Source: an unicellular cyanobacterium SU3 (lineage in GTDB: Bacteria; Cyanobacteriota; Cyanobacteriia; Cyanobacteriales; Microcystaceae). Taken from it: a stretch of DNA of 39,898 bases. Within the stretch, counting starts at the first letter, position 1; each line of letters begins with the position of its first letter. Position numbers and translations under genes: made by a program. Location: the NCBI GenBank assembly GCA_002172675.1, contig NETF01000189.1, positions 1 through 39,898 on the forward strand, read 5' to 3'. Below are positions 9,876-22,603 of the stretch, one piece after another. The notes below the pieces were generated by a model. The model was not told the origin of the DNA. It worked only from the letters and a program-made list of their open reading frames with translations, and searched no databases.

Positions 9876-10181
9876 ATGGCAAGTTACAAGGTTACTCTAA
9901 ACATCAACGGCGAAGATGGAAAAAGTACCCAGACTATCGAAGTACCCGAAGATGAGTACATTCTTGATGTAGCAGAAGAACAAGGTCTTGACTTACCTTA
10001 TTCTTGTCGTGCTGGTGCTTGTTCTACCTGTGCCGGTAAACTTGTTAGTGGTAGCATCGATCAAAGCGATCAATCTTTCTTAGATGATGATCAAATCGAA
10101 CAAGGATTTGTTTTAACTTGTGTTGCTTATCCTACCTCTGACTGCACCATCGAAACTCACCAAGAAGAAGCATTGTACTAA
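9876..10181 (+). CDS. petF: Plant-type [2Fe-2S] ferredoxin, copy 1
   Basis: A 101-residue soluble electron carrier. The cluster ligands are Cys44, Cys49, Cys52 and Cys82 in [14 protein letters not shown] and LTCVAYP, the canonical C-x4-C-x2-C...C pattern. The acidic surface ([16 protein letters not shown] and the C-terminal THQEEALY) is typical of the photosystem I acceptor that passes electrons to FNR. Its N-terminus carries a two-residue extra stretch compared with the second copy. It is followed after 103 bases by a nearly identical gene in the same direction, with a hairpin between them. Confidence 0.95.
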
Positions 10182-10284: not shown

Positions 10285-10584
10285 ATGGCAACTTACAAAG
10301 TTACCCTCAAAAACGAAGCAGAAGGAATTAACACCACCATCGATGTACCCGAAGATGAGTACATCCTTGATGTAGCAGAAGAACAAGGTCTTGAATTACC
10401 TTATTCTTGTCGTGCTGGTGCTTGTTCTACCTGTGCTGGTAAACTCGTTAGTGGCAGCATTGATCAAGGCGATCAATCTTTCTTAGATGATGATCAAATC
10501 GAAGCAGGATTTGTTTTAACTTGTGTTGCTTATCCGACTTCTGACTGCACTATCGAAACTCACCAAGAAGAAGCATTGTATTAA
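10285..10584 (+). CDS. petF: Plant-type [2Fe-2S] ferredoxin, copy 2
   Basis: A 99-residue ferredoxin with ligands Cys42, Cys47, Cys50 and Cys80. From [10 protein letters not shown] to the C-terminal EEALY it differs from the first copy at only a few residues, while the first 20 residues differ clearly. It has its own AAAGGA ribosome-binding site. Function should be the same as copy 1. The N-terminal difference lies away from the cluster loop, so partner choice is more likely affected than redox chemistry. It is followed directly by a strong hairpin. Confidence 0.95.
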
Positions 10585-12628: not shown

Positions 12629-14128
12629 TTAATTTTTTAACCAATTACTATCAATATAATTAATTTTAGCATAGGGTTCTAATGCCGTTAAAATAAGATT
12701 ACCATAACTACGATAATTGACTCGATTATCTAATAAAGCGACAATTCCTTGAGATTCTCTTAACGGCATAACGGCTCTTTGAATTTCTTTTAATGCTGTT
12801 GGTAAAAGATACAATCGAAACCAATCTTTATGTTGTTTTTTATAATAATTAACTTGAGCAGAGACTAGAGGATTTTCTAAAGAAGGAATGGGCAAAGTTG
12901 CAATAATAAATAGTTTAGGAGTCGGTAATGTTGCTTGATGATTATGCCAAAATTTCCAGCCACTAATTAAAATACTGTTATGATCGACATCTGTATTTTC
13001 TACCTTTACTTGTGAGCCAAATTCTGCCGCTAAAAAGGTCGCCACTTGAGCTTTAGAAGGAACATCATCAACAATAATTGTAATGGGTTTTAAGCTTTCA
13101 TAACCCCCAAAAACCAGTTTTCTCACTTCTTCTATTAATATCCTTTGGAATTCGGGCGTATTTGGCATCGGTAAGCGATCGCGAATATATAAATTAATTA
13201 ATTCATTTTGACGATGAGGATAAAATTTTAAACATAAAATATTTTGGGTTAAACCAACAGTTTTTCGATAAGTCGGGGCGGCTTTTTGACTGTCAAGAAA
13301 TCCTCCCATTAAAACAATAGGAGACTCTTCTAAGTGAGGCGATAAAATAGAAGAAATATCTAAGGGACTGACATGAATAGAAAAGGTATTTTCTTCTCGA
13401 TTAATAGATGCCCATAAAAGTTGATTATTATTATCAAGAGATTGGGCAAAATTTTGTAACAAAGAAGATTGATTAAGAGTTGCACAAAGATGAGATAAAC
13501 TCTCTTTTTCTTCTTGATCCAGTAAACAGCATTGATAGGGACTATTAGGATGGCTAAAAATTGATTTTTTCAAGAAAAATCTAACTTCTTGAATTAAGTT
13601 ACCATAAGCAGGATACTGTTGTTGTAATTGTTGCCAATTTGTAGGAGAAATAGTTAGGGTTAAATAGTCTTTTGTCCACTCCTCTAAATAATCAGCTTGA
13701 TCAATTAAAGTAACAATATCATCAGGAAATTGACCCTTATTATCTAAGCGATCGCCTAACCAAACATCAGGAGAAACGATAGATAACCCCTTAAATTCGT
13801 CGAAATTAACTTTTTTGCCTTGAGTAATAATAGTTTTATTGGTATTTAACCATCTCTGAAGATAGGGAATATCTTGTTCGATTAATTGTTTTTGCAGGTT
13901 TAAAGGAACCACCAATAAAATCGGGCGATCGCTTAATAAACACGGCATTAAATAACTTAATCCATAACGAGAAAAAGTGCTTCCTGTTTGAATCAAAGCA
14001 GATCGATTTAAACGTAAAGCGCGAGACACTAAACGGGCCATGGTCAAATGGTGATCCCAAAGGGGTTCCCCTTGATCCCGTAAAAATTCCCGTAAGGAAA
14101 TATGAACTTCTGCTTCTAAGAGAGTCAT
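12629..14128 (-). CDS. DinG/XPD-like helicase homologue with degraded ATPase motifs
   Basis: 499 residues from ATG 14128; a GTG start at 14158 would add ten residues, but the conserved part begins with LLEAEVHISLREFLRDQG. The C-terminal half keeps DinG-family landmarks: a LPMPNTPEFQ segment like the LPFPxPxDP loop, and MPLRESQGIVALLDNR...SYG like motif VI and its surroundings (RLIRxxxDxGxxxxLDxR). The N-terminal half has SALIQTGSTFSRYGLSYLMP where Walker A (GTGKT) belongs, and LIDQADYLEEW where DEAH belongs. Neither has the residues needed for ATP hydrolysis. The frame is intact, so this looks like a maintained non-catalytic relative. It is divergent from psb28. Confidence 0.7.
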   Translation of the reverse strand: MTLLEAEVHISLREFLRDQGEPLWDHHLTMARLVSRALRLNRSALIQTGSTFSRYGLSYLMPCLLSDRPILLVVPLNLQKQLIEQDIPYLQRWLNTNKTIITQGKKVNFDEFKGLSIVSPDVWLGDRLDNKGQFPDDIVTLIDQADYLEEWTKDYLTLTISPTNWQQLQQQYPAYGNLIQEVRFFLKKSIFSHPNSPYQCCLLDQEEKESLSHLCATLNQSSLLQNFAQSLDNNNQLLWASINREENTFSIHVSPLDISSILSPHLEESPIVLMGGFLDSQKAAPTYRKTVGLTQNILCLKFYPHRQNELINLYIRDRLPMPNTPEFQRILIEEVRKLVFGGYESLKPITIIVDDVPSKAQVATFLAAEFGSQVKVENTDVDHNSILISGWKFWHNHQATLPTPKLFIIATLPIPSLENPLVSAQVNYYKKQHKDWFRLYLLPTALKEIQRAVMPLRESQGIVALLDNRVNYRSYGNLILTALEPYAKINYIDSNWLKN

Positions 14129-14238
14129 AGGCAATGATTTGACCAGAATAGATAGCACTTAGACAATGATCTCTATCATAAGGAGTTGATGAAATGATAA
14201 ATTGAGGATCATGTAAATTTAATTAAAGGATAACAAGC

Positions 14239-14574
14239 ATGGCTCAAATTCAATTTTCTCGTGGTGTTTCTGAACCGGTTGTACCTGAAGTGCGTCTAAC
14301 TCGTGCTAAAAGTGGCAACAGTGGAACCGCAACTTTTCGCTTTGAAGGTCCTACCATTCTAGATGCTGAAAGTACCGATGATATTACAGGAATGTATCTC
14401 GTAGATGAAGAAGGAGAGATCGTTACCCGTGAGGTTAAAGGAAAATTTATCAACGGAAAACCCACCTCCGTCGAAGCTATTTTAATTATGAACTCCCAAG
14501 ATGAATGGGATCGCTTTATGCGTTTTATGGAACGTTATGCACAAGAAAACGGGTTAGGCTTTTCTAAAGCTTAA
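14239..14574 (+). CDS. psb28: Photosystem II assembly protein Psb28
   Basis: A 111-residue soluble protein of the normal Psb28 length. The family pattern is clear throughout: [19 protein letters not shown] at the start, [20 protein letters not shown], and [21 protein letters not shown] at the end. Psb28 binds the cytoplasmic face of CP47/cytochrome b559 during photosystem II biogenesis. The start is preceded by AAAGGATAACAAGC. It is followed by a heptamer repeat tract and then the moaB/mog gene. Confidence 0.96.
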
Positions 14575-14583
14575 TCTATTTTT

Positions 14584-14625
14584 AGGAGTCAGGAGACAGA
14601 AGGCAGGAGTCAGAAGTCAGAAATT
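14584..14625. repeat. Degenerate heptanucleotide repeat (AGGAGTC type)
   Basis: Six 7-base units between psb28 and the moaB/mog gene: AGGAGTC, AGGAGAC, AGAAGGC, AGGAGTC, AGAAGTC, AGAAATT. A 9-base repeat (CTTCCCCTG twice) follows at about 14642-14660. Confidence 0.8.
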
Positions 14626-14694
14626 AAGATGTCTCTTTTTTGCTTCCCCTGCTTCCCCTGCTCACCTCATCATAAATTATTTTAAGTTAAATTA

Positions 14695-15195
14695 ATGTCT
14701 ATTCCCCACCACGATCGCCAAATTCTTAGTCTTGCCTGTGCTATTGTTACGGTGAGTGATACTCGTACCCCCGAAAGCGATCGCAGTGGACAACTTCTTA
14801 ACCAACGTCTGACAGAAGCAGGCCATCAAATCATTAATTACGAGATCCTCAAGGATGAACCCCAGGACATAATCTCCCATGTACAGCAATTAAAACAAGA
14901 GAATAAGATAGATGTCATAATCCTCAATGGAGGCACGGGAATCGCCCCTCGAGACACCACCTATGACGCATTAGAGGGGTTATTAGAGAAGACTTTGCCG
15001 GGGTTTGGGGAATTGTTTCGGTATTTGAGTTATCAAGAAATTGGTTCACGGGCCATGGCCTCGCGGGCGATCGCAGGGGTTTATGAAAATATTTTAATCT
15101 TTTCGTTGCCGGGATCATCGAATGCGGTTAAGTTAGCTTTAGATAAATTAATTCTCCCCGAATTGATACATTTAACCAAACAAATACGGGGTTAA
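14695..15195 (+). CDS. MoaB/Mog family molybdenum cofactor protein
   Basis: A 166-residue protein acting in molybdopterin adenylylation or a related step. The substrate-binding signature VIILNGGTGIAPRDTTYDAL (about 73-92) and the early TVSDTRTPESDRSG match MoaB/MogA. The end, FSLPGSSNAVKLALDKLILPEL, matches the C-terminal consensus. ATG 14695 is close to a TTAAGTTAAATTA leader with no clear Shine-Dalgarno. MoaB and MogA cannot be told apart by eye. The reverse transcriptase gene starts only 19 bases after its stop, so transcription may run through. Confidence 0.9.
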   Translation: MSIPHHDRQILSLACAIVTVSDTRTPESDRSGQLLNQRLTEAGHQIINYEILKDEPQDIISHVQQLKQENKIDVIILNGGTGIAPRDTTYDALEGLLEKTLPGFGELFRYLSYQEIGSRAMASRAIAGVYENILIFSLPGSSNAVKLALDKLILPELIHLTKQIRG

Positions 15196-15214
15196 GGTTG
15201 GAAATATTGAATAA

Positions 15215-16714
15215 ATGATGCTTAATATTCAAAATACTATTGACTACTTTTCTAGTGATTATCACAAAAGTTTTTTTCCTTTATCAACTAATGAAATAGT
15301 AATTAAAAATTCTGGAGAAGAATTATATAAATATATCTATGAAAAATTATTAAAAAATGATGACGCACAAGAATATAATTTTCTTCCACAAATTCGTTGC
15401 TACAGTGCTAAACATGATATGCACTTAAGAAGGACATTCAAGCTTGACCCAGTAGCTGAATTTTTTATCTATGATTTAGTCTATCGGAATAAAAAGTCTT
15501 TTAGAAAAGATTTTAATGAAAATAGAAGAAGTTTTGGTCATACCTTTAAACAAGGTAAACCTGTTTCTCTTGCCCTAGCTTATAGAGAATTTAAGAAATC
15601 GGTAACTGAAGCTAATCAAGATTATAAATATTGTCTAAAACTTGATATTTCTGCATATTTTAATAGTATATATCATCACGATCTAGTTCAATGGTTTGAA
15701 CGAATTTTACAAGAACAACAAGGATCAAAAGATCCAGAATATTTAGGGAAGTTTTTAAGACAAATTAATTCAGGAAGAAGTGTTGACTGTCTTCCTCAAG
15801 GGATACATCCATGTAAAGTAATCGGTTCTGAATTTTTAAAATTTATTGATAATTCAATGCAATTGAAGTGCGATCTTTTATTAAGATTTATGGATGATAT
15901 ATATATTTTCGCTAATAAAAATCGAGTAATCAATCATGATTTTTTATGGATTCAACAAAGGGCTGGAGAACAAGGTCTTAATATAAATAGCTCAAAAACT
16001 AAATATGGTGATCTTGGTATCATAGAAGTAAGTGGCAAAATAGAAGAAGTCAGAAAACAATTGCTCAGAATGAGAACAGAAATGATTTCAGACTACTATG
16101 AAAGTGAAGAAGAATCACATGATTTAACCTTGAGTAATGAACAAGAAGAGTATCTTTACCATCTGCTTAATAATCCTGAATTAGAAGAAGCAGATGCAGA
16201 TTTAATCCTTACTTTTATGAAAGAAAATGTAAAAGATGTACTTGAGAATATTAAAATTTTTCTCTACAAATTTCCTAATTTAATTAAAAAAATTTATTAT
16301 TATTCTACTTTTGTCGAGAATAAGTCAGATTTATTAGAGATAATTAGTGAGTTTCTTGATGAAGCTGAAATCGTAACTGAAGAGCAACTATTTTGGATAA
16401 CGAAAATTGTAGAAGATTACTTACCAACAACAGGGAAATATTCTTACTTACTTATCAAAATTTATGAACACAAAAATTCTTCAAAAATTTCTAAAAGTAA
16501 GATTTTAGAAATACCTGAAAATCGTTTTGGGATGCCTGATTTAAGATATGATCATCTCAAAGAAGGTAAAGCAGACTGGTTATCTTGGTCTTCTGCTGTT
16601 GGTTCTAGATGTCTTCCTAAAAGTCAGAGAAATTCAATTCTTAGTTATTTTGGAAATGTCTCTCCCATAAATTATTTAATAGCTGAAACTGTTAAAAAAC
16701 TTTTAAAGTTTTGA
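15215..16714 (+). CDS. Stand-alone reverse transcriptase, antiphage (UG/Abi/DRT) type
   Basis: 499 residues. Reverse-transcriptase motifs are visible: HLRRTFKLDPVAEFFIYDLV (70-89), motif A YCLKLDISAYFNSIYHHDL (139-157, catalytic Asp144), motif B CLPQGIHPCKVIGSEFL (192-208), the catalytic LLRFMDDIYIF (222-232, Asp227 and Asp228) and motif D GEQGLNINSSKTKYG (251-265). Motif B lacks the SPLL of group II intron and retron enzymes and has the ...G.....SEFL form seen in abortive-infection RTs. Residues 280-499 are mostly helical with no maturase, endonuclease or RNase H motif, consistent with the alpha-helical C-terminal domain of Abi/UG enzymes. It is AT-rich, begins 19 nt after moaB/mog with no clear ribosome-binding site (two adjacent ATGs), and faces a HicAB pair. 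The exact DRT class cannot be assigned by eye. Confidence 0.88.
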   Translation: MMLNIQNTIDYFSSDYHKSFFPLSTNEIVIKNSGEELYKYIYEKLLKNDDAQEYNFLPQIRCYSAKHDMHLRRTFKLDPVAEFFIYDLVYRNKKSFRKDFNENRRSFGHTFKQGKPVSLALAYREFKKSVTEANQDYKYCLKLDISAYFNSIYHHDLVQWFERILQEQQGSKDPEYLGKFLRQINSGRSVDCLPQGIHPCKVIGSEFLKFIDNSMQLKCDLLLRFMDDIYIFANKNRVINHDFLWIQQRAGEQGLNINSSKTKYGDLGIIEVSGKIEEVRKQLLRMRTEMISDYYESEEESHDLTLSNEQEEYLYHLLNNPELEEADADLILTFMKENVKDVLENIKIFLYKFPNLIKKIYYYSTFVENKSDLLEIISEFLDEAEIVTEEQLFWITKIVEDYLPTTGKYSYLLIKIYEHKNSSKISKSKILEIPENRFGMPDLRYDHLKEGKADWLSWSSAVGSRCLPKSQRNSILSYFGNVSPINYLIAETVKKLLKF

Positions 16715-16743
16715 ACATGTGCTGATTTTAATTTTATCATCAT

Positions 16744-16795
16744 AATTACTTTAGTATAAAATTTGATTATAATTCTATAATTAAATAAAGTAATT
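16744..16795. terminator. Nested inverted repeat between reverse transcriptase and hicB
   Basis: A perfect 10-bp outer stem, AATTACTTTA (16744-16753) and TAAAGTAATT (16786-16795), encloses a second stem in which TATAAAATT pairs with AATTCTATA with one mismatch. It lies between two convergent genes and, on the plus strand, is followed by CTCGCTTTTT. The simplest reading is a bidirectional terminator. A short structured RNA is the alternative. Confidence 0.5.
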
Positions 16796-16803
16796 CTCGC
16801 TTT

Positions 16804-17103
16804 TTACATATTTTTTACATATAGATTTTCATTAGTTAAAATTGCCTCTGATATCTCAACAGTTGTAAAAGCAATAGCATCTTGATGATCTTTATCTTTT
16901 AAAATACTTTCGAGAGTGCTAGGTGTAGGAATAACATCACCATCAGTTACCATTAAATTAATATGACCTATTAAAGCTTCTTTTGCCATCATTTTTGCTT
17001 CTTCAATACTCTCTCCGGCACTAATACAACCAGGAAAGTCATAAAATTGTACACCATAATCACTATCCTTATCTTTGTGAATCGTTGCAATATAAGTAAT
17101 CAT
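16804..17103 (-). CDS. hicB: HicB family antitoxin (pair 1)
   Basis: A 99-residue protein with the HicB partial RNase H-like fold: MITYIATIHKDKDSDYGVQF, then YDFPGCISAGESIEEAKMMA (about 21-40), then KEALIGHINLMVTDG. The C-terminal 40 residues replace the ribbon-helix-helix or HTH of longer HicB proteins, and no DNA-binding motif is obvious. It follows its toxin by 10 bases (toxin-first order, normal for hicAB) and is convergent with the reverse transcriptase. Confidence 0.88.
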   Translation of the reverse strand: MITYIATIHKDKDSDYGVQFYDFPGCISAGESIEEAKMMAKEALIGHINLMVTDGDVIPTPSTLESILKDKDHQDAIAFTTVEISEAILTNENLYVKNM

Positions 17104-17113
17104 ATTAACTCCT

Positions 17114-17302
17114 TTAACGTAGTTTAATTCCTGCTTGTTTTTCGATACTACTTAAAGTTTTGATGGGGATATCCTTTTTTGGATGAGGAACCGTAACTTT
17201 TCCTTTTTTTTCTGGGTGTTTAAAGTGGTGATGACTTCCTGTTGTACTCACTTGATACCATCCATCTGCTTTGAGTTTTTTAATAATTTCTCGACTGTTC
17301 AT
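17114..17302 (-). CDS. hicA: HicA family mRNA interferase toxin (pair 1)
   Basis: A 62-residue double-stranded-RNA-binding-fold ribonuclease. It starts with SREIIKKLKADGWYQVSTTG and has the catalytic histidine segment GSHHHFKHP (22-30), followed by KGKVTVPHPKKDIPIKTLSSIEKQAGI, a full-length match to the HicA plan. When free it would cleave translated mRNAs; HicB blocks it. Intact and paired, so it should be active. It lies between the reverse transcriptase islet and putA. Confidence 0.9.
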   Translation of the reverse strand: MNSREIIKKLKADGWYQVSTTGSHHHFKHPEKKGKVTVPHPKKDIPIKTLSSIEKQAGIKLR

Positions 17303-17348
17303 ATCATAATGAATGGTTTTTCAAGTGTTGAAAAAGAAGTATAGGTGA

Positions 17349-17365
17349 GGTGGGCAATGCCCACC
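17349..17365. repeat. Short perfect palindrome
   Basis: GGTGGGCAATGCCCACC: a 7-bp stem with an AAT loop, 7 bases downstream of the putA stop. Similar GTGGGC...GCCCAC motifs recur in cyanobacterial intergenic DNA. It may end the putA transcript. Confidence 0.6.
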
Positions 17366-17372
17366 CGACAGG

Positions 17373-20345
17373 TTACTCAGCCCCTTCTATGGGTGCAAAC
17401 CCTTGACGCTGAATATTCTCGCTAATATGACGAGGTTCGAGGAACTGTAATAAATAGTCAGGTCCTCCTGCTTTGGAACCCACACCGGACAACTTGAACC
17501 CACCAAAGGGTTGACGGGCAACGATCGCACCGGTAATAGTACGGTTAATGTACAAGTTACCCACTTCAAACTCTTTCTGGGCCTGTTCGATATGTTCGGG
17601 ACTCCGAGAATATAACCCCCCGGTTAAGGCGTAGTCGGTTCCGTTGGCGACTGCTAACGCTTCTTTAAAGCTTTTAACTCGCATCACCGCAACCACGGGG
17701 CCAAATATCTCTTCTTGAGCGATAGTATTGTCAGGTAACACATCCCCAAAGATGGTCGGACCCACATAAAAACCGTTGTCAGGGGCTTCCATTTGCAAGG
17801 CGAGGGTTGACTCTTGTTTTGCCGTTTCAATGTACTCTAAAATGCGTTTTTGTGCCGTTGCGTCGATGACGGGCCCGACTTGGGTAGAGGGTTCATCCGT
17901 TGGTCCCACATTCAGGGACTTGGTAGCGTCTACGAACCGTTCTATAAAAGCGTCGTAAACGGGTTCTAAAACGATGATACGGGAGGCTGCGGAACATTTT
18001 TGACCGGTATAACCAAACGCAGAAAAGACAGCCCCTGCAACCGCTTGATCGAGGTCTGCACTTTCGTCAACAATAATAGCGTTTTTACCACCCATCTCTG
18101 CGATCACCCGTTTCAGATGTTTTTGTCCAGGTTGTAAAATAGCAGCATCTGCATAGATGCGACATCCCACTTCCCTCGATCCGGTAAAGGCGATCAAATG
18201 TACGTCAGGATGGTTGACCATATAAGCCCCCACTTTCGACCCCTTACCAGGAACCAGTTGAAAGACTCCTTTAGGAATGCCAGCGTCGACTAATATTTCA
18301 GCAATTTTAGCAGCAATCACTGTAGAAGTTTCAGCAGGCTTTAATAAGGTACAGTTTCCTGTCACTAACGCGGCCACGGTCATTCCTGTGGCGATCGCAA
18401 AGGGAAAGTTCCAGGGAGAAATTACTAAAGCAATACCTCTGGGTTGATAATGATAACGGTTGGTTTCCCCTGCGACATCGTAGTTATAACCCTTGTCTAA
18501 CCGTTCCATTTCATCGGCATAATACCGGCAAAAGTCGATCGCTTCGGATACTTCTGCGTCTGCTTGTTGTAATATTTTACCCACTTCTAAACAGATCCAA
18601 GCGCATAACTCATGACGGCGTTCTTCCATCAAATCGCCAGCTTTACGGAGTATTCTGGCTCTTTCTATGGCTGGTGTTTTCTTCCACCTTTTAAAGGCTT
18701 CTTTTGCTGCATTTAATGCCTGTTCTGTTTGTTCAACAGAAATTAAACCAATTTGTCCCACCACTTCAGAAGATTTAGAGGGGTTAAGAGAGTCAACAAT
18801 GACATCAGTTTGCACATATTCCCCGTTAATTAAGGGTAAATAGGTTTTACCGAGACTATCTTTCACTTTTGCTAAAGCTTGCTGTGCTTTTTCCCGTAAT
18901 ACTTCTCTAGAATAATCTGTGTCAGCAGCATTAATAAAGTCTTCCTCTGTCTGTCTTGTCTTCTTCTCTTCGGAAACCACCGGGGGACTGATTAAGTCTT
19001 CGACGGGTTTTTCTTCTAAATTTTGGCGTAAGAAAGAACTATTAGCCGTATTTTCCAATAAACGACGAATCAAATACGACATCCCTGGTAATAAGTCCCC
19101 ATAAGGCGCATAAACTCGCACACGATGTCCTGTTTTAACTAACGCTTTGGCTAACTGATCCCCCATTCCATATAATACCTGCATCTCGAAGGCACGAGAG
19201 GGGACGTTTAAGGTTTCAGCGATGGCGATCGCCCTTGCTTGCGATCGCACGTTATGGGACCCGATCGCAGCGTATAAATATTGATTATTTTCCAACAATA
19301 ATTGGGTCATCTCTTCGTAATTAACATCTGTGGCTGCTTTTTGGTTATATACCGGTTGCGACCAATGATTTTGCTCAGATTTAATGGTTTCTTGATCCCA
19401 GTACGCTCCTTTTACTAATCTTACCGTGATCGGGTTGCCTCTTTCTTTAGCCCAGGCAATGAGATCGTGTAAGTCTTGTTTCGAGTCTCTTAAATAAGCT
19501 TGTAAAGTAACACCGATATCGCTACGGTGGCGAAACTCTTCTTCTAACAAGAGTTCCTTGAGGATAGATAGGGTGAGATCCTTGTAAACATATTGTTCCA
19601 TATCGAAATGGATAGCCACCCCTAACTCTTGGGCCCGATGGAGAAGGATACGAATGCGATCGCAGACTTTTGCTTTACTTCCTTCGGGATCAATAGGATC
19701 AAACTGGGAATAAAAAGCAGTTAATTTAACCGATACTTGAACCTTCGATAAGCTTTCATCTCCTGCTTGGTCAATTTGCTCGACATTTGACCATTTTTTC
19801 GACTCTGTGGCTAATTTTTCCATCAAGTCGAGGTAACTATCTAGATAAGCTTTAGCCTCGCTTTCGGTAATAACTGCTTCCCCTAATAAGTCGATGGTAA
19901 ACCCCATTTTCTCTTTTCGGAGTTTTTCGACGGTTTTGATAACTTGAGGAATTGTTTCACCGGAAATATACTTAAAAGCGAGAGTTTCTACCGCTTTTTT
20001 AATGGTGACAGCAGCTAATTGTGCCGGTGGTGAGTTAGGATCAGAGAAGTTAAGCAGTCCTTTTAAAGCACTAGGTAACTCTACAGACTCATCTCCTAAA
20101 TATTGTTGCAGATGATGAGCGATTTCTGCATTACTTTGTAGCGCGGGTAAGGTATCGATAAAATGAAATAATTGCACCCGTAAGCCAGGGTTAGCCATAG
20201 CAAACCCCAGAAGTTTATCATCCCAACGCATTTGATCGCCAATTTTAGACCATAATGAGCGTTTTTCACGGGTTTGGGCGATTAATTCTTTAGCTATTTC
20301 CTGGGTTCTTTGTTCGTAGGTTTTAGAATCTAGTTGTACTACCAA
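17373..20345 (-). CDS. putA: Bifunctional proline dehydrogenase / glutamate-semialdehyde dehydrogenase
   Basis: A 990-residue two-domain enzyme that oxidises proline to glutamate. The FAD-dependent proline dehydrogenase barrel spans about 100-460, with VRLVKGAYWDQET, SHNVRSQARAIA, FEMQVLYGMGDQL and APYGDLLPGMSYLIRRLLEN. The NAD-dependent aldehyde dehydrogenase spans about 500-975, with NFPFAIATGM, LLKPAETST, IAFTGSREVG, the general-base Glu in VIAEMGGKNA and nucleophile Cys784 in TGQKCSAASR. There is no N-terminal ribbon-helix-helix, so it is the non-DNA-binding short form and does not repress its own gene. The start is MVVQLDSK. Monocistronic. Confidence 0.96.
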   Translation of the reverse strand: MVVQLDSKTYEQRTQEIAKELIAQTREKRSLWSKIGDQMRWDDKLLGFAMANPGLRVQLFHFIDTLPALQSNAEIAHHLQQYLGDESVELPSALKGLLNFSDPNSPPAQLAAVTIKKAVETLAFKYISGETIPQVIKTVEKLRKEKMGFTIDLLGEAVITESEAKAYLDSYLDLMEKLATESKKWSNVEQIDQAGDESLSKVQVSVKLTAFYSQFDPIDPEGSKAKVCDRIRILLHRAQELGVAIHFDMEQYVYKDLTLSILKELLLEEEFRHRSDIGVTLQAYLRDSKQDLHDLIAWAKERGNPITVRLVKGAYWDQETIKSEQNHWSQPVYNQKAATDVNYEEMTQLLLENNQYLYAAIGSHNVRSQARAIAIAETLNVPSRAFEMQVLYGMGDQLAKALVKTGHRVRVYAPYGDLLPGMSYLIRRLLENTANSSFLRQNLEEKPVEDLISPPVVSEEKKTRQTEEDFINAADTDYSREVLREKAQQALAKVKDSLGKTYLPLINGEYVQTDVIVDSLNPSKSSEVVGQIGLISVEQTEQALNAAKEAFKRWKKTPAIERARILRKAGDLMEERRHELCAWICLEVGKILQQADAEVSEAIDFCRYYADEMERLDKGYNYDVAGETNRYHYQPRGIALVISPWNFPFAIATGMTVAALVTGNCTLLKPAETSTVIAAKIAEILVDAGIPKGVFQLVPGKGSKVGAYMVNHPDVHLIAFTGSREVGCRIYADAAILQPGQKHLKRVIAEMGGKNAIIVDESADLDQAVAGAVFSAFGYTGQKCSAASRIIVLEPVYDAFIERFVDATKSLNVGPTDEPSTQVGPVIDATAQKRILEYIETAKQESTLALQMEAPDNGFYVGPTIFGDVLPDNTIAQEEIFGPVVAVMRVKSFKEALAVANGTDYALTGGLYSRSPEHIEQAQKEFEVGNLYINRTITGAIVARQPFGGFKLSGVGSKAGGPDYLLQFLEPRHISENIQRQGFAPIEGAE

Positions 20346-20564
20346 GATTTAATACTCTCCTATCATAGTGTGTGAGGCGCGTAGTAATTTTTAAGGGTAA
20401 TGTTAAGTAAAAGTCTCTAATTTTACTTTCTTCTTTAATTTTACCTTAAGAGAGTACCCTTATATACGTTAAGGAGATGAGTCAATGGCGACAAGGTTTA
20501 ATTAATAAAAACATTGTTGTATTGTTATTAGAAACAAATTTAAAGAGAGATAAAAAAATAAAAT

Positions 20565-20809
20565 TTATTTTTCAAATAGTTTATGAAGTAACTCATCTCT
20601 ATTTAACTGAAAATGATTACCAATATTACGTAAAATTGCGTTTAATGTGCCAACTTTAAGGGGGTTATGAGCAGGAATTGTAATATTATGTTCTCCATTT
20701 TTTGAGTCGTTAATCGAATATGACTACCTGTTTGATGCGTCACTTCATAGCCAAATTTTTTTAGGGTTTTTACTAAATCTTGACCCGATAAGTCTCTGGG
20801 TAATTTCAT
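20565..20809 (-). pseudogene. Frameshifted HicA-like toxin (pair 2)
   Basis: From ATG 20809 the frame gives MKLPRDLSGQDLVKTLKKFG...THQTGSHIRLTTQ, a HicA/YcfA-like start with the GSH motif. It then shifts at a run of six A's on the coding strand (20698-20703) and stops early. Adding one A restores NGEHNITIPAHNPLKVGTLN and on to a TAA at 20567-20565, giving about 81 residues, the normal length. So a single-base deletion has inactivated it, or the base was missed in sequencing. Its ATG overlaps the antitoxin's TGA by ATGA, so the two genes were translationally coupled. Confidence 0.75.
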
Positions 20810-21015
20810 GAAGCAAATACCTCTTCTTGGACAATATGAAGGCGAATAATTTTAGGACGTAAATTTTCATCAGGAAAGTGACAATGAACTGCATCTTTGA
20901 CTTCTTTTTTTAATGTCTCTAAATCGTCCGCTTGAGTAATAATTGATTCTCCTAATGCTTGGGCGATATAACCGTTTTCCTCATCAGATTCAACTAAGAA
21001 AATAATTTCAGTCAT
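20806..21015 (-). CDS. HicB-like antitoxin (pair 2)
   Basis: A 69-residue protein: EIIFLVESDEENGYIAQALG (about 3-22), then ESIITQADDLETLKKEVKDAV and HCHFPDE...PKIIRLHIVQEEVFA. This is the short HicB-like family common in cyanobacteria and normally paired with a YcfA/HicA-like protein. No DNA-binding domain. The order is antitoxin first, the reverse of pair 1, with a four-base overlap into the toxin. Because the toxin frame is broken, this antitoxin may be an orphan that persists with no target, or it may neutralise toxins of related pairs. Confidence 0.75.
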   Translation of the reverse strand: MTEIIFLVESDEENGYIAQALGESIITQADDLETLKKEVKDAVHCHFPDENLRPKIIRLHIVQEEVFAS

Positions 21016-21596: not shown

Positions 21597-21968
21597 AGTA
21601 TGCAGGATTTATTTAAGAGATTAAATGCTCAAGGAATAGACCTAAAAATATCTAATTTTTCTAAAGCCAGTAAAAAAAGAGATACTCAAGTATTTCTTGA
21701 CATTATTTACCAATTAAAAAGGGAACTTAGACGACAGAAAGGTGAAAGAAAAGCTCGCTCTTACTTTCCTATTGATTCAACAATTATTAGTTGAACAAGT
21801 AAACTATTATGGAGTCAAGGATATCATCAAGTAAAACTATTTTGCGGAATAGACAGTTGGACATCAGAACCAGGAGGAATAGTTATTCATTTTGGGCAAG
21901 GACATGACTATAAATATGGTCATCAAACAGTAGAGTCTATCCCAGAAAAGACTGTAGGAATAATGGAT

Positions 21969-22019
21969 AGCGGTGCGACCTCGGCGATTCGTAATCGCCT
22001 AGAGGAAGCGCACAAAGAG
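21969..22019. repeat. 51-bp in-frame palindromic insert in the transposase gene
   Basis: A 41-nt imperfect hairpin (21973-22013): GTGCG pairs with CGCAC, CCTC with GAGG, and GGCGATT with AATCGCC around a CGT loop. It adds 17 codons between MD and RGFAS of the DDE core. It is GC-rich compared with the transposase around it. Confidence 0.7.
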
Positions 22020-22603
22020 AGGGGTTTTGCATCTTGTGAAAAAATAAAGGAATTAAAAGAAAAAGAAAATAAGGCATTTGTTTTAAGAATAAAAAATAAT
22101 CTAGGTTTAGAAGTGCTAGAAAATGGCAAGAGTAAAGTGGGAAAAAATGAAAGAGAAGTAGAAATTAGAGTAGTAACATTTTGTGACTTAGAAGATAGAA
22201 CAGAATTCAGATTGGCTACTAATTTACTCTTTGATGGAGAAGAAGGAGTAAGTAATGAAGAGATAGGGGAAATATATGTACAACGATGGCAGATAGAGTT
22301 ACTTTGGAAGTTTTTAAAGATGCACTTGAAGCTAGACAGACTGATGACAAAGAATGAAAATGGCATTCCCATACAAATCTATAGTTGCTTAATTGCTTAT
22401 CTAATTTTACAACTAATAGAAATACCTCAAGAATTTGGAAAAACGATATTAGATAAACTTCGTTATCTTCAAGCTTATATGTGTCAAGAAATTAGTGATG
22501 TTCATTGGTTTAGAAAACTGATTTGGTTGAGATGAAAATTGTCTAGGATAGAGTTAGTATAATTTAATATGTAAAGTTTTTTAACGACATTCAACATTTC
22601 TGT

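Follow-up and report, generated by a model that had tools for sequence, protein, structure and literature searches.

A stand-alone reverse transcriptase gene from a relative of Crocosphaera, almost certainly of DRT type 5 (Drt5/UG16)

An intact gene for a stand-alone reverse transcriptase

The window analyzed here, a stretch of 39,898 nucleotides from a relative of Crocosphaera, carries on its forward strand an open reading frame (ORF) for a reverse transcriptase (RT), and the question that this locus raises is whether the enzyme represents a new kind of defence RT or a member of a known family. An earlier note on this DNA had described a stand-alone RT with intact catalytic sites, left its class unresolved and considered that it could be a minimal or new type. 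The ORF (15215-16714, forward strand) encodes 499 amino acids with no internal stop in its translation; the one minus-strand frame translated over the same positions has many stops.

The catalytic residues are located where the note had placed them. Asp144 of motif A (15644-15646) and the catalytic Asp227 and Asp228 of the FMDD box (residues 225-228; 15887-15898) form a triad that is intact in the window protein and invariant in 13 of 13 Drt5 members, and in the AlphaFold2 model the FMDD box sits between strands 221-225 and 228-233. The translated motif B region also has the form reported, CLPQGIHPCKVIGSEF at residues 192-207 (15788-15835), within which L193, G196, P199, K201, I203 and G204 are invariant (13/13 Drt5 aligned).

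At E up to 1, Pfam detected in the window protein RVT_1 alone (residues 110-264; 51.9 bits, cut-off 29.6), and none of the maturase, integrase, RNase H, nitrilase, phosphohydrolase or Cas1 domains. Together with the beta strands of the model, this match delimits the RT fingers and palm to residues about 61-266 (15395-16012). The remainder, residues 267-499 (16013-16711), is predicted to be a helical domain like the one that stands in for the thumb of Abi polymerases, as judged from the AlphaFold2 helices and the Foldseek matches, so that the helical C-terminal part free of maturase, integrase and RNase H that the note had proposed stands. The linker that joins the RT to the helical domain (residues 293-304; 16091-16126) is acidic and of low confidence (pLDDT < 50), the aligned stretch at residues 285-312 having 7-16 acidic versus 0-7 basic residues among the 13 Drt5 members. 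The source genome has 13 RVT_1 matches, 12 of them above the cut-off, and drt5 is the sole match listed for the window.

Assignment to DRT type 5

The NCBIfam Drt5 model (NF041750) matches the window protein over positions 1-484 of its 484 and scores 667.4 bits, where the curated cut-off is 550 and chance would give far less, and the six other NCBIfam models listed for the protein all remain below 35 bits. PADLOC likewise ranks Drt5 first (657 bits), followed by Drt8 (94), UG20 (90) and others lower; the Drt8 and UG20 matches span nearly the whole protein length and are more than 560 bits weaker than that of Drt5. The window protein is about 88-89% identical to its sister copy, and 35-58% to the nine other members of alignment A1.

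A palm-domain tree was then calculated for 31 RTs (146 columns, LG+G4, 1000 ultrafast bootstraps), namely 13 Drt5 copies and 18 other RTs, with UG20 absent and no row named as retron or DGR. For the latter set, 38 RT ORFs were listed and 20 classified, of which 18 entered the tree (L022 and L029 were left out). The Drt5 alignment and tree excluded a broken copy (genome G167; L011/L092), two partial ones (G614, at a contig end, and G604), a second Phaeobacter match (H3) and a duplicate (L097). The support values quoted are those of the Newick file; labels displayed after re-rooting (53, 100) sat on shifted nodes. The 13 Drt5 copies, with the window RT among them, separate from the 18 other RTs with a support of 100, and their sister group is formed by Drt8 and Abi-P2/UG14 (support 71). 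Drt8 and UG20 provide the next nearest profiles, and Drt8 makes up a separate clade.

Based on these sequence comparisons, the window gene is almost certainly drt5, that is, DRT type 5 (Drt5/UG16), from a relative of Crocosphaera. The protein shares with that family its length, its stand-alone layout and a full-length match, and no tested feature differs in the cyanobacterial copy. Since both the profiles and the palm tree place it clearly within a named DRT type, a class can be assigned and the reading as a new type fails; indeed, such placement was the result that the earlier note had set against novelty, and the Drt5 score, besides exceeding its curated cut-off, leads the next PADLOC family by some 560 bits. 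The more general claim of a stand-alone, defence-type RT of the UG/Abi kind is right. Overall, the window holds an ordinary and intact drt5 gene, a member of an already known antiphage RT family and no new type. DRT type 5, equivalent to UG16, is listed among RTs reported for phage resistance (PMC7699616).

Predicted structure and fold relatives

A first structure model, built from 5 sequences, reached a pLDDT of 48.5, and its fold search returned no match at E 0.001, with weak HEAT/armadillo matches. The AlphaFold2 model used here was obtained from 7 sequences (pLDDT 66.7, pTM 0.58) and has fingers and palm followed by a helical domain at the C-terminus, residues 267-499 being helical apart from loops; the ten-residue mean pLDDT is 54-91 after residue 300, with values below 50 in 267-304. 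The top Foldseek matches, which span nearly the full protein (457-557 columns), were AbiA (3.5e-10), DRT6 (8.8e-9), Abi-P2 (1.9e-8) and DRT4/UG15 (2.9e-7 to 4.0e-6). The ncRNA-using DRT9 appeared at 1.9e-6, between two UG15 chains and ahead of AbiK (6.1e-6), and the lower matches comprised group II RT domains, a DGR RT and AbiK. TM-scores by query length were 0.42-0.48 to AbiA and Abi-P2, with an rmsd of 9-14 A, and a viral fold library returned RTs and polymerases in general. Among solved chains, DRT6 came nearest in the sequence-profile search (32 bits), so that no Drt5 structure showed up in the PDB copy searched.

The model, of moderate confidence, predicts the two-lobed, Abi-type architecture of class 1 UG RTs, with an RT followed by a helical domain and no thumb. 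AbiA, Abi-P2, AbiK, DRT4 and DRT6 have the same combination of RT and helical domain and are the best structural matches, at 13-15% identity. We take AbiA, Abi-P2, DRT4 and DRT6 to be class 1 UG RTs. AbiK is placed in the same class in the literature. The nitrilase or phosphohydrolase domain that characterizes class 3 UG RTs was not detected by Pfam, which gave RVT_1 only.

Proposed mechanism and candidate priming residue

By analogy with AbiA, Abi-P2, DRT4 and DRT6, we consider it likely that drt5 is a one-gene antiphage system making protein-primed, template-free DNA. As in its relatives, Drt5 would oligomerize and would start synthesis from a hydroxyl side chain of its own; dNTPs would be added without a nucleic-acid template, in a channel between the palm and the helical domain, resulting in single-stranded DNA joined to protein. 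Upon phage infection this DNA would accumulate or be unmasked, and either phage replication or the cell would be blocked. Two proteins called DRT5S and DRT5L need to be distinguished here. Once purified, both showed template-free, protein-primed synthesis, and they are filed in class 3, that of the nitrilase/phosphohydrolase RTs (PMC13275509). Given that class 3 placement, and given that UG1 and UG5 are nitrilase fusions (PMC8934634), DRT5S and DRT5L are probably the small and large UG5 proteins and not Drt5/UG16. They share with the window protein a name and the template-free, protein-primed label but belong to class 3, and they were not counted as direct evidence; were they Drt5/UG16 after all, direct support for the template-free mechanism would follow.

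Class 1 UG RTs are described as an RT plus HEAT-like repeats, those studied making untemplated DNA (PMC13174585, PMC12489045). For AbiK and Abi-P2, template-free synthesis starts from a Tyr of the N-terminal loop, and a helical domain replaces the thumb (PMC9508834). Across the 13 Drt5 members, six hydroxyl residues are invariant (T74, Y86, Y148, Y153, S189 and Y478), the first five within the RT domain. Tyr478 (16646-16648), alone among the tyrosines outside the RT domain in being invariant (13/13 Drt5) and located 21 residues from the C-terminus, is our best guess for the primer on grounds of conservation alone; its invariance may equally be structural, and DRT1 is reported to prime from a Ser in a stretch absent from its resolved structure (PMC13275509). 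Unlike AbiK, with its priming Tyr in the N-terminal loop, Drt5 has no invariant Tyr there, Tyr63 occurring in 11 of the 13 copies.

It is also conceivable, if rather unlikely, that Drt5 makes a protein-templated, patterned product as DRT3b does, instead of random DNA. In DRT3b, which groups with class 1, a conserved Tyr (Y666) serves as the primer (PMC13174585), and Drt5 for its part keeps Tyr478; however, the similarity of the window protein to the NCBIfam Drt3b model is very weak (15.9 bits). The more elaborate version, in which Drt5 would prime from its near-C-terminal Tyr478 in the manner of DRT3b Y666, yield a protein-patterned product and spread as a bare ORF needing neither RNA nor partner, seems to us slightly less probable again. 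Template-free synthesis is the reading that we prefer, bearing in mind that two 2026 reviews call the DRT5 mechanism not established or unresolved (PMC13213688, PMC13314766), and that no paper devoted to Drt5/UG16 was found in the literature searched. With DRT5 being one of the DRT types so described, the window copy has a modest value: the cyanobacterial copies offer a comparative argument that Drt5 can do without a cis-encoded RNA and without a partner protein, and they supply a short list of residues to mutate.

A bare ORF beside putA

In the window, drt5 lies between mogA and hicBA, and the homology edges obtained with blastn and inspected in a junction printout delimit a transferred block. 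On the left (15210-15217), mogA-side homology, which reaches 15217 against genome G395, stops where Drt5 homology starts; on the right (16697-16708), Drt5 homology stops where hicB-side homology to genomes without Drt5 (G398, G400 and G401) starts, at 16697. The block common to the window and G396, a genome of the window's own genus, is 15210-16708 (91% DNA) and comprises the ORF only, the flanks being unrelated except for putA. From the positions of these three homology edges, it follows that the foreign segment is close to a bare ORF. The gap between mogA and drt5 is 19 bases, and hicBA (16804-17302; Pfam HicB-like and HicA) adjoins drt5 on the other side. The Drt5 stop of G396 is immediately next to a putA terminator-like hairpin, with no hicBA between Drt5 and putA.

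These edges bear on whether Drt5, like DRT2, DRT9 or DRT3a, could copy an ncRNA encoded close by, which we regard as distinctly improbable. Such a template would be in keeping with the DRT9 match among the Foldseek results and with a 3' stem at 16715-16803 that is more stable than its shuffles (z -2.95). Nevertheless, this stem falls in the sequence, from 16697 onward, that is common to genomes having the hicB-side DNA and no Drt5, the 5' gap is as short as stated, and Abi-type enzymes rank first among the structural matches of the predicted model. In addition, Rfam, run at gathering thresholds over the whole window, matched only a distant tRNA-Pro and nothing near drt5, so a flanking ncRNA was rejected as a candidate; with the block shared with G396 limited to the ORF, the conserved ncRNA of class 2 UG RTs was not found either. 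A trans-encoded or ORF-internal RNA may still serve Drt5. The promoter scan gave 14 promoters, about the number expected (12.9).

A decaying, non-functional copy would be a very improbable explanation for the window gene. Some cyanobacterial Drt5 copies are broken or partial (G167 and G604), and as stop codons interrupt the G167 copy (L092, 4213-5693), the family does also decay in cyanobacteria; moreover, the last 18 bases of the window ORF, stop included, fall within the hicB-side sequence. However, the window gene is intact and keeps its catalytic triad, and the comparison with its 88%-identical homologue in G396 (dN 0.056, dS 0.227, dN/dS about 0.25) indicates that drt5 is under purifying selection. 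For the same pair of genomes, dS is 0.58 for putA and 0.23 for Drt5, and this lower value suggests, from one gene pair, that Drt5 was probably exchanged after the species split. The GC content of Drt5 is 28% (17% at third positions), lower than that of the window (37%) and of putA and mogA (44%). As far as these sequences tell, drt5 is probably a one-gene system exchanged among cyanobacteria.

The slot beside putA (15196-17372 in the window; L080-L088) varies within the genus. The putA flank is present in 9 of 9 genomes, the window's own included; with a psb28-mogA query, the psb28 end was found in all nine and mogA in four (window, G395, G398 and G399). Three genomes have mogA and putA close together on one contig (window, G395 and G399), and G398 has mogA on another contig, followed by other genes. 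Next to putA, G395 has an HTH_17 gene together with small ORFs; G401 has an AAA_21 ATPase and an ORF that resembles DUF4276 but scores under the Pfam cut-off; G398, G399 and G400 have hicB and other ORFs; G397 has a 475-aa ORF; in G402, a 508-aa ORF precedes part of hicB; and the window and G396 have Drt5, with hicBA in the former and without it in the latter. That drt5 and the neighbouring hicBA make up one system is therefore scarcely tenable, because Drt5 occurs without hicBA beside it in G396 and hicB occurs in G398, G399 and G400, where Drt5 was not found; HicBA was rejected as a partner on the first of these grounds.

Repeats in 13500-18500 were short or imperfect pairs, none of them taken as element ends. 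The neighbourhood 13500-20500 matched 10 of 72,556 plasmid records, each over at most 5% of the query, with hicBA or dehydrogenase genes as the named features under the matches and three matches without any. Elsewhere in the window, at 20642-21015 and 21963-22535, there is a second HicA-like gene (half of the HicA model) with a DDE_Tnp_1 transposase remnant nearby, and a tandem pair of very similar ferredoxin-like ORFs, noticed by eye, occupies 9876-10181 and 10285-10584.

Neighbours and distribution of Drt5

Among Drt5 loci in general, the neighbours differ (ORF lists, mostly without profile search), and the gene is single, without a conserved partner. The exceptions are putA, which adjoins both copies of the window's genus, and a HerA-type gene that precedes the two Roseobacter copies. 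In the Roseovarius plasmid (L055; 331-3627) the gene directly before Drt5 has HerA domains by Pfam; the matching upstream ORF in Phaeobacter (L054; 4573-9455) has no Pfam match, though its DNA is 89% alike. By eye, the ORF lists of the other loci revealed no HerA-type ATPase gene directly before Drt5, and a conserved ATPase partner was rejected, as this gene was seen only at Roseobacter loci. The earlier note had seen no flanking ncRNA, second RT gene or nitrilase partner, and Rfam, the RVT_1 listing and Pfam agree with it; the lack of partner genes fits Drt5, given that neighbours vary between its loci.

The pairs L090/L091 (79% DNA) and L095/L053 (65%) share, at the sensitivity used, DNA of the ORF only, which is weaker ORF-only evidence in that their non-coding DNA may have diverged beyond detection. 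In the Roseobacter pair (L054/L055), the common block exceeds the ORF: upstream it takes in the HerA-type gene, and downstream it covers 115 bases beyond the stop. As side observations, a SIR2 gene lies near Drt5 in the Phaeobacter plasmid (L054); in Pseudoalteromonas luteoviolacea (L040; 2568-9482), Drt5 follows a TniQ-Cas8/5-Cas7-Cas6-like operon and a CRISPR array which, by eye, have the look of a CRISPR-associated transposon; and in other cyanobacteria, apparently ordinary chromosomal genes flank Drt5 (by eye).

Of the genomes sampled, 2 of 386 in the phylum and 5 of 388 in the order exceeded the Drt5 cut-off; in the order sample, 8 of 388 reached E 1e-60, partial and broken copies included. 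In the phylum of Pseudoalteromonas, the single genome over the cut-off (1/398) is the one used as the sampling centre. Drt5 was present in 4 of 72,556 plasmid records and in none of 50,697 phage records. A scan of genome contigs gave four Drt5 loci, in Crocosphaera sp. MO_202.B2 (88% aa), Pseudoalteromonas luteoviolacea (57%), a deltaproteobacterium (47%) and Asticcacaulis (41%); the Crocosphaera locus has the same coordinates as the G396 copy, which suggests that both come from one assembly. Of five scans of viral contigs with Drt5 queries, one yielded two IMG/VR contigs carrying Drt5 (L095 and L096), another recovered one of these two and three gave no locus, and the scan of viral contigs with the Drt8 alignment gave no locus. 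An AAA_15/AAA_21 ATPase gene lies about 3 kb from Drt5 in L096.

Finally, an identity as a group II intron, retron, DGR or CRISPR-associated RT, to which the common RVT_1 domain and weak scores for the NCBIfam group II intron (TIGR04416; 34.3 bits) and retron St85 (34 bits) models might point, has a practically negligible probability, since both scores are far under their cut-offs (300 and 235), the window RT falls outside the group II and RT-Cas1 rows of the palm tree, which has no named retron or DGR rows, and maturase and Cas1 domains are lacking; the full-length Drt5 match speaks decisively against it. In that tree, Drt5, Drt8, Abi-P2 and UG14 separate from nine RTs (three group II, two RT-Cas1 and four other) with a support of 93. 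RT-Cas1 fusion proteins were observed in other cyanobacterial genomes (L025 and L038).
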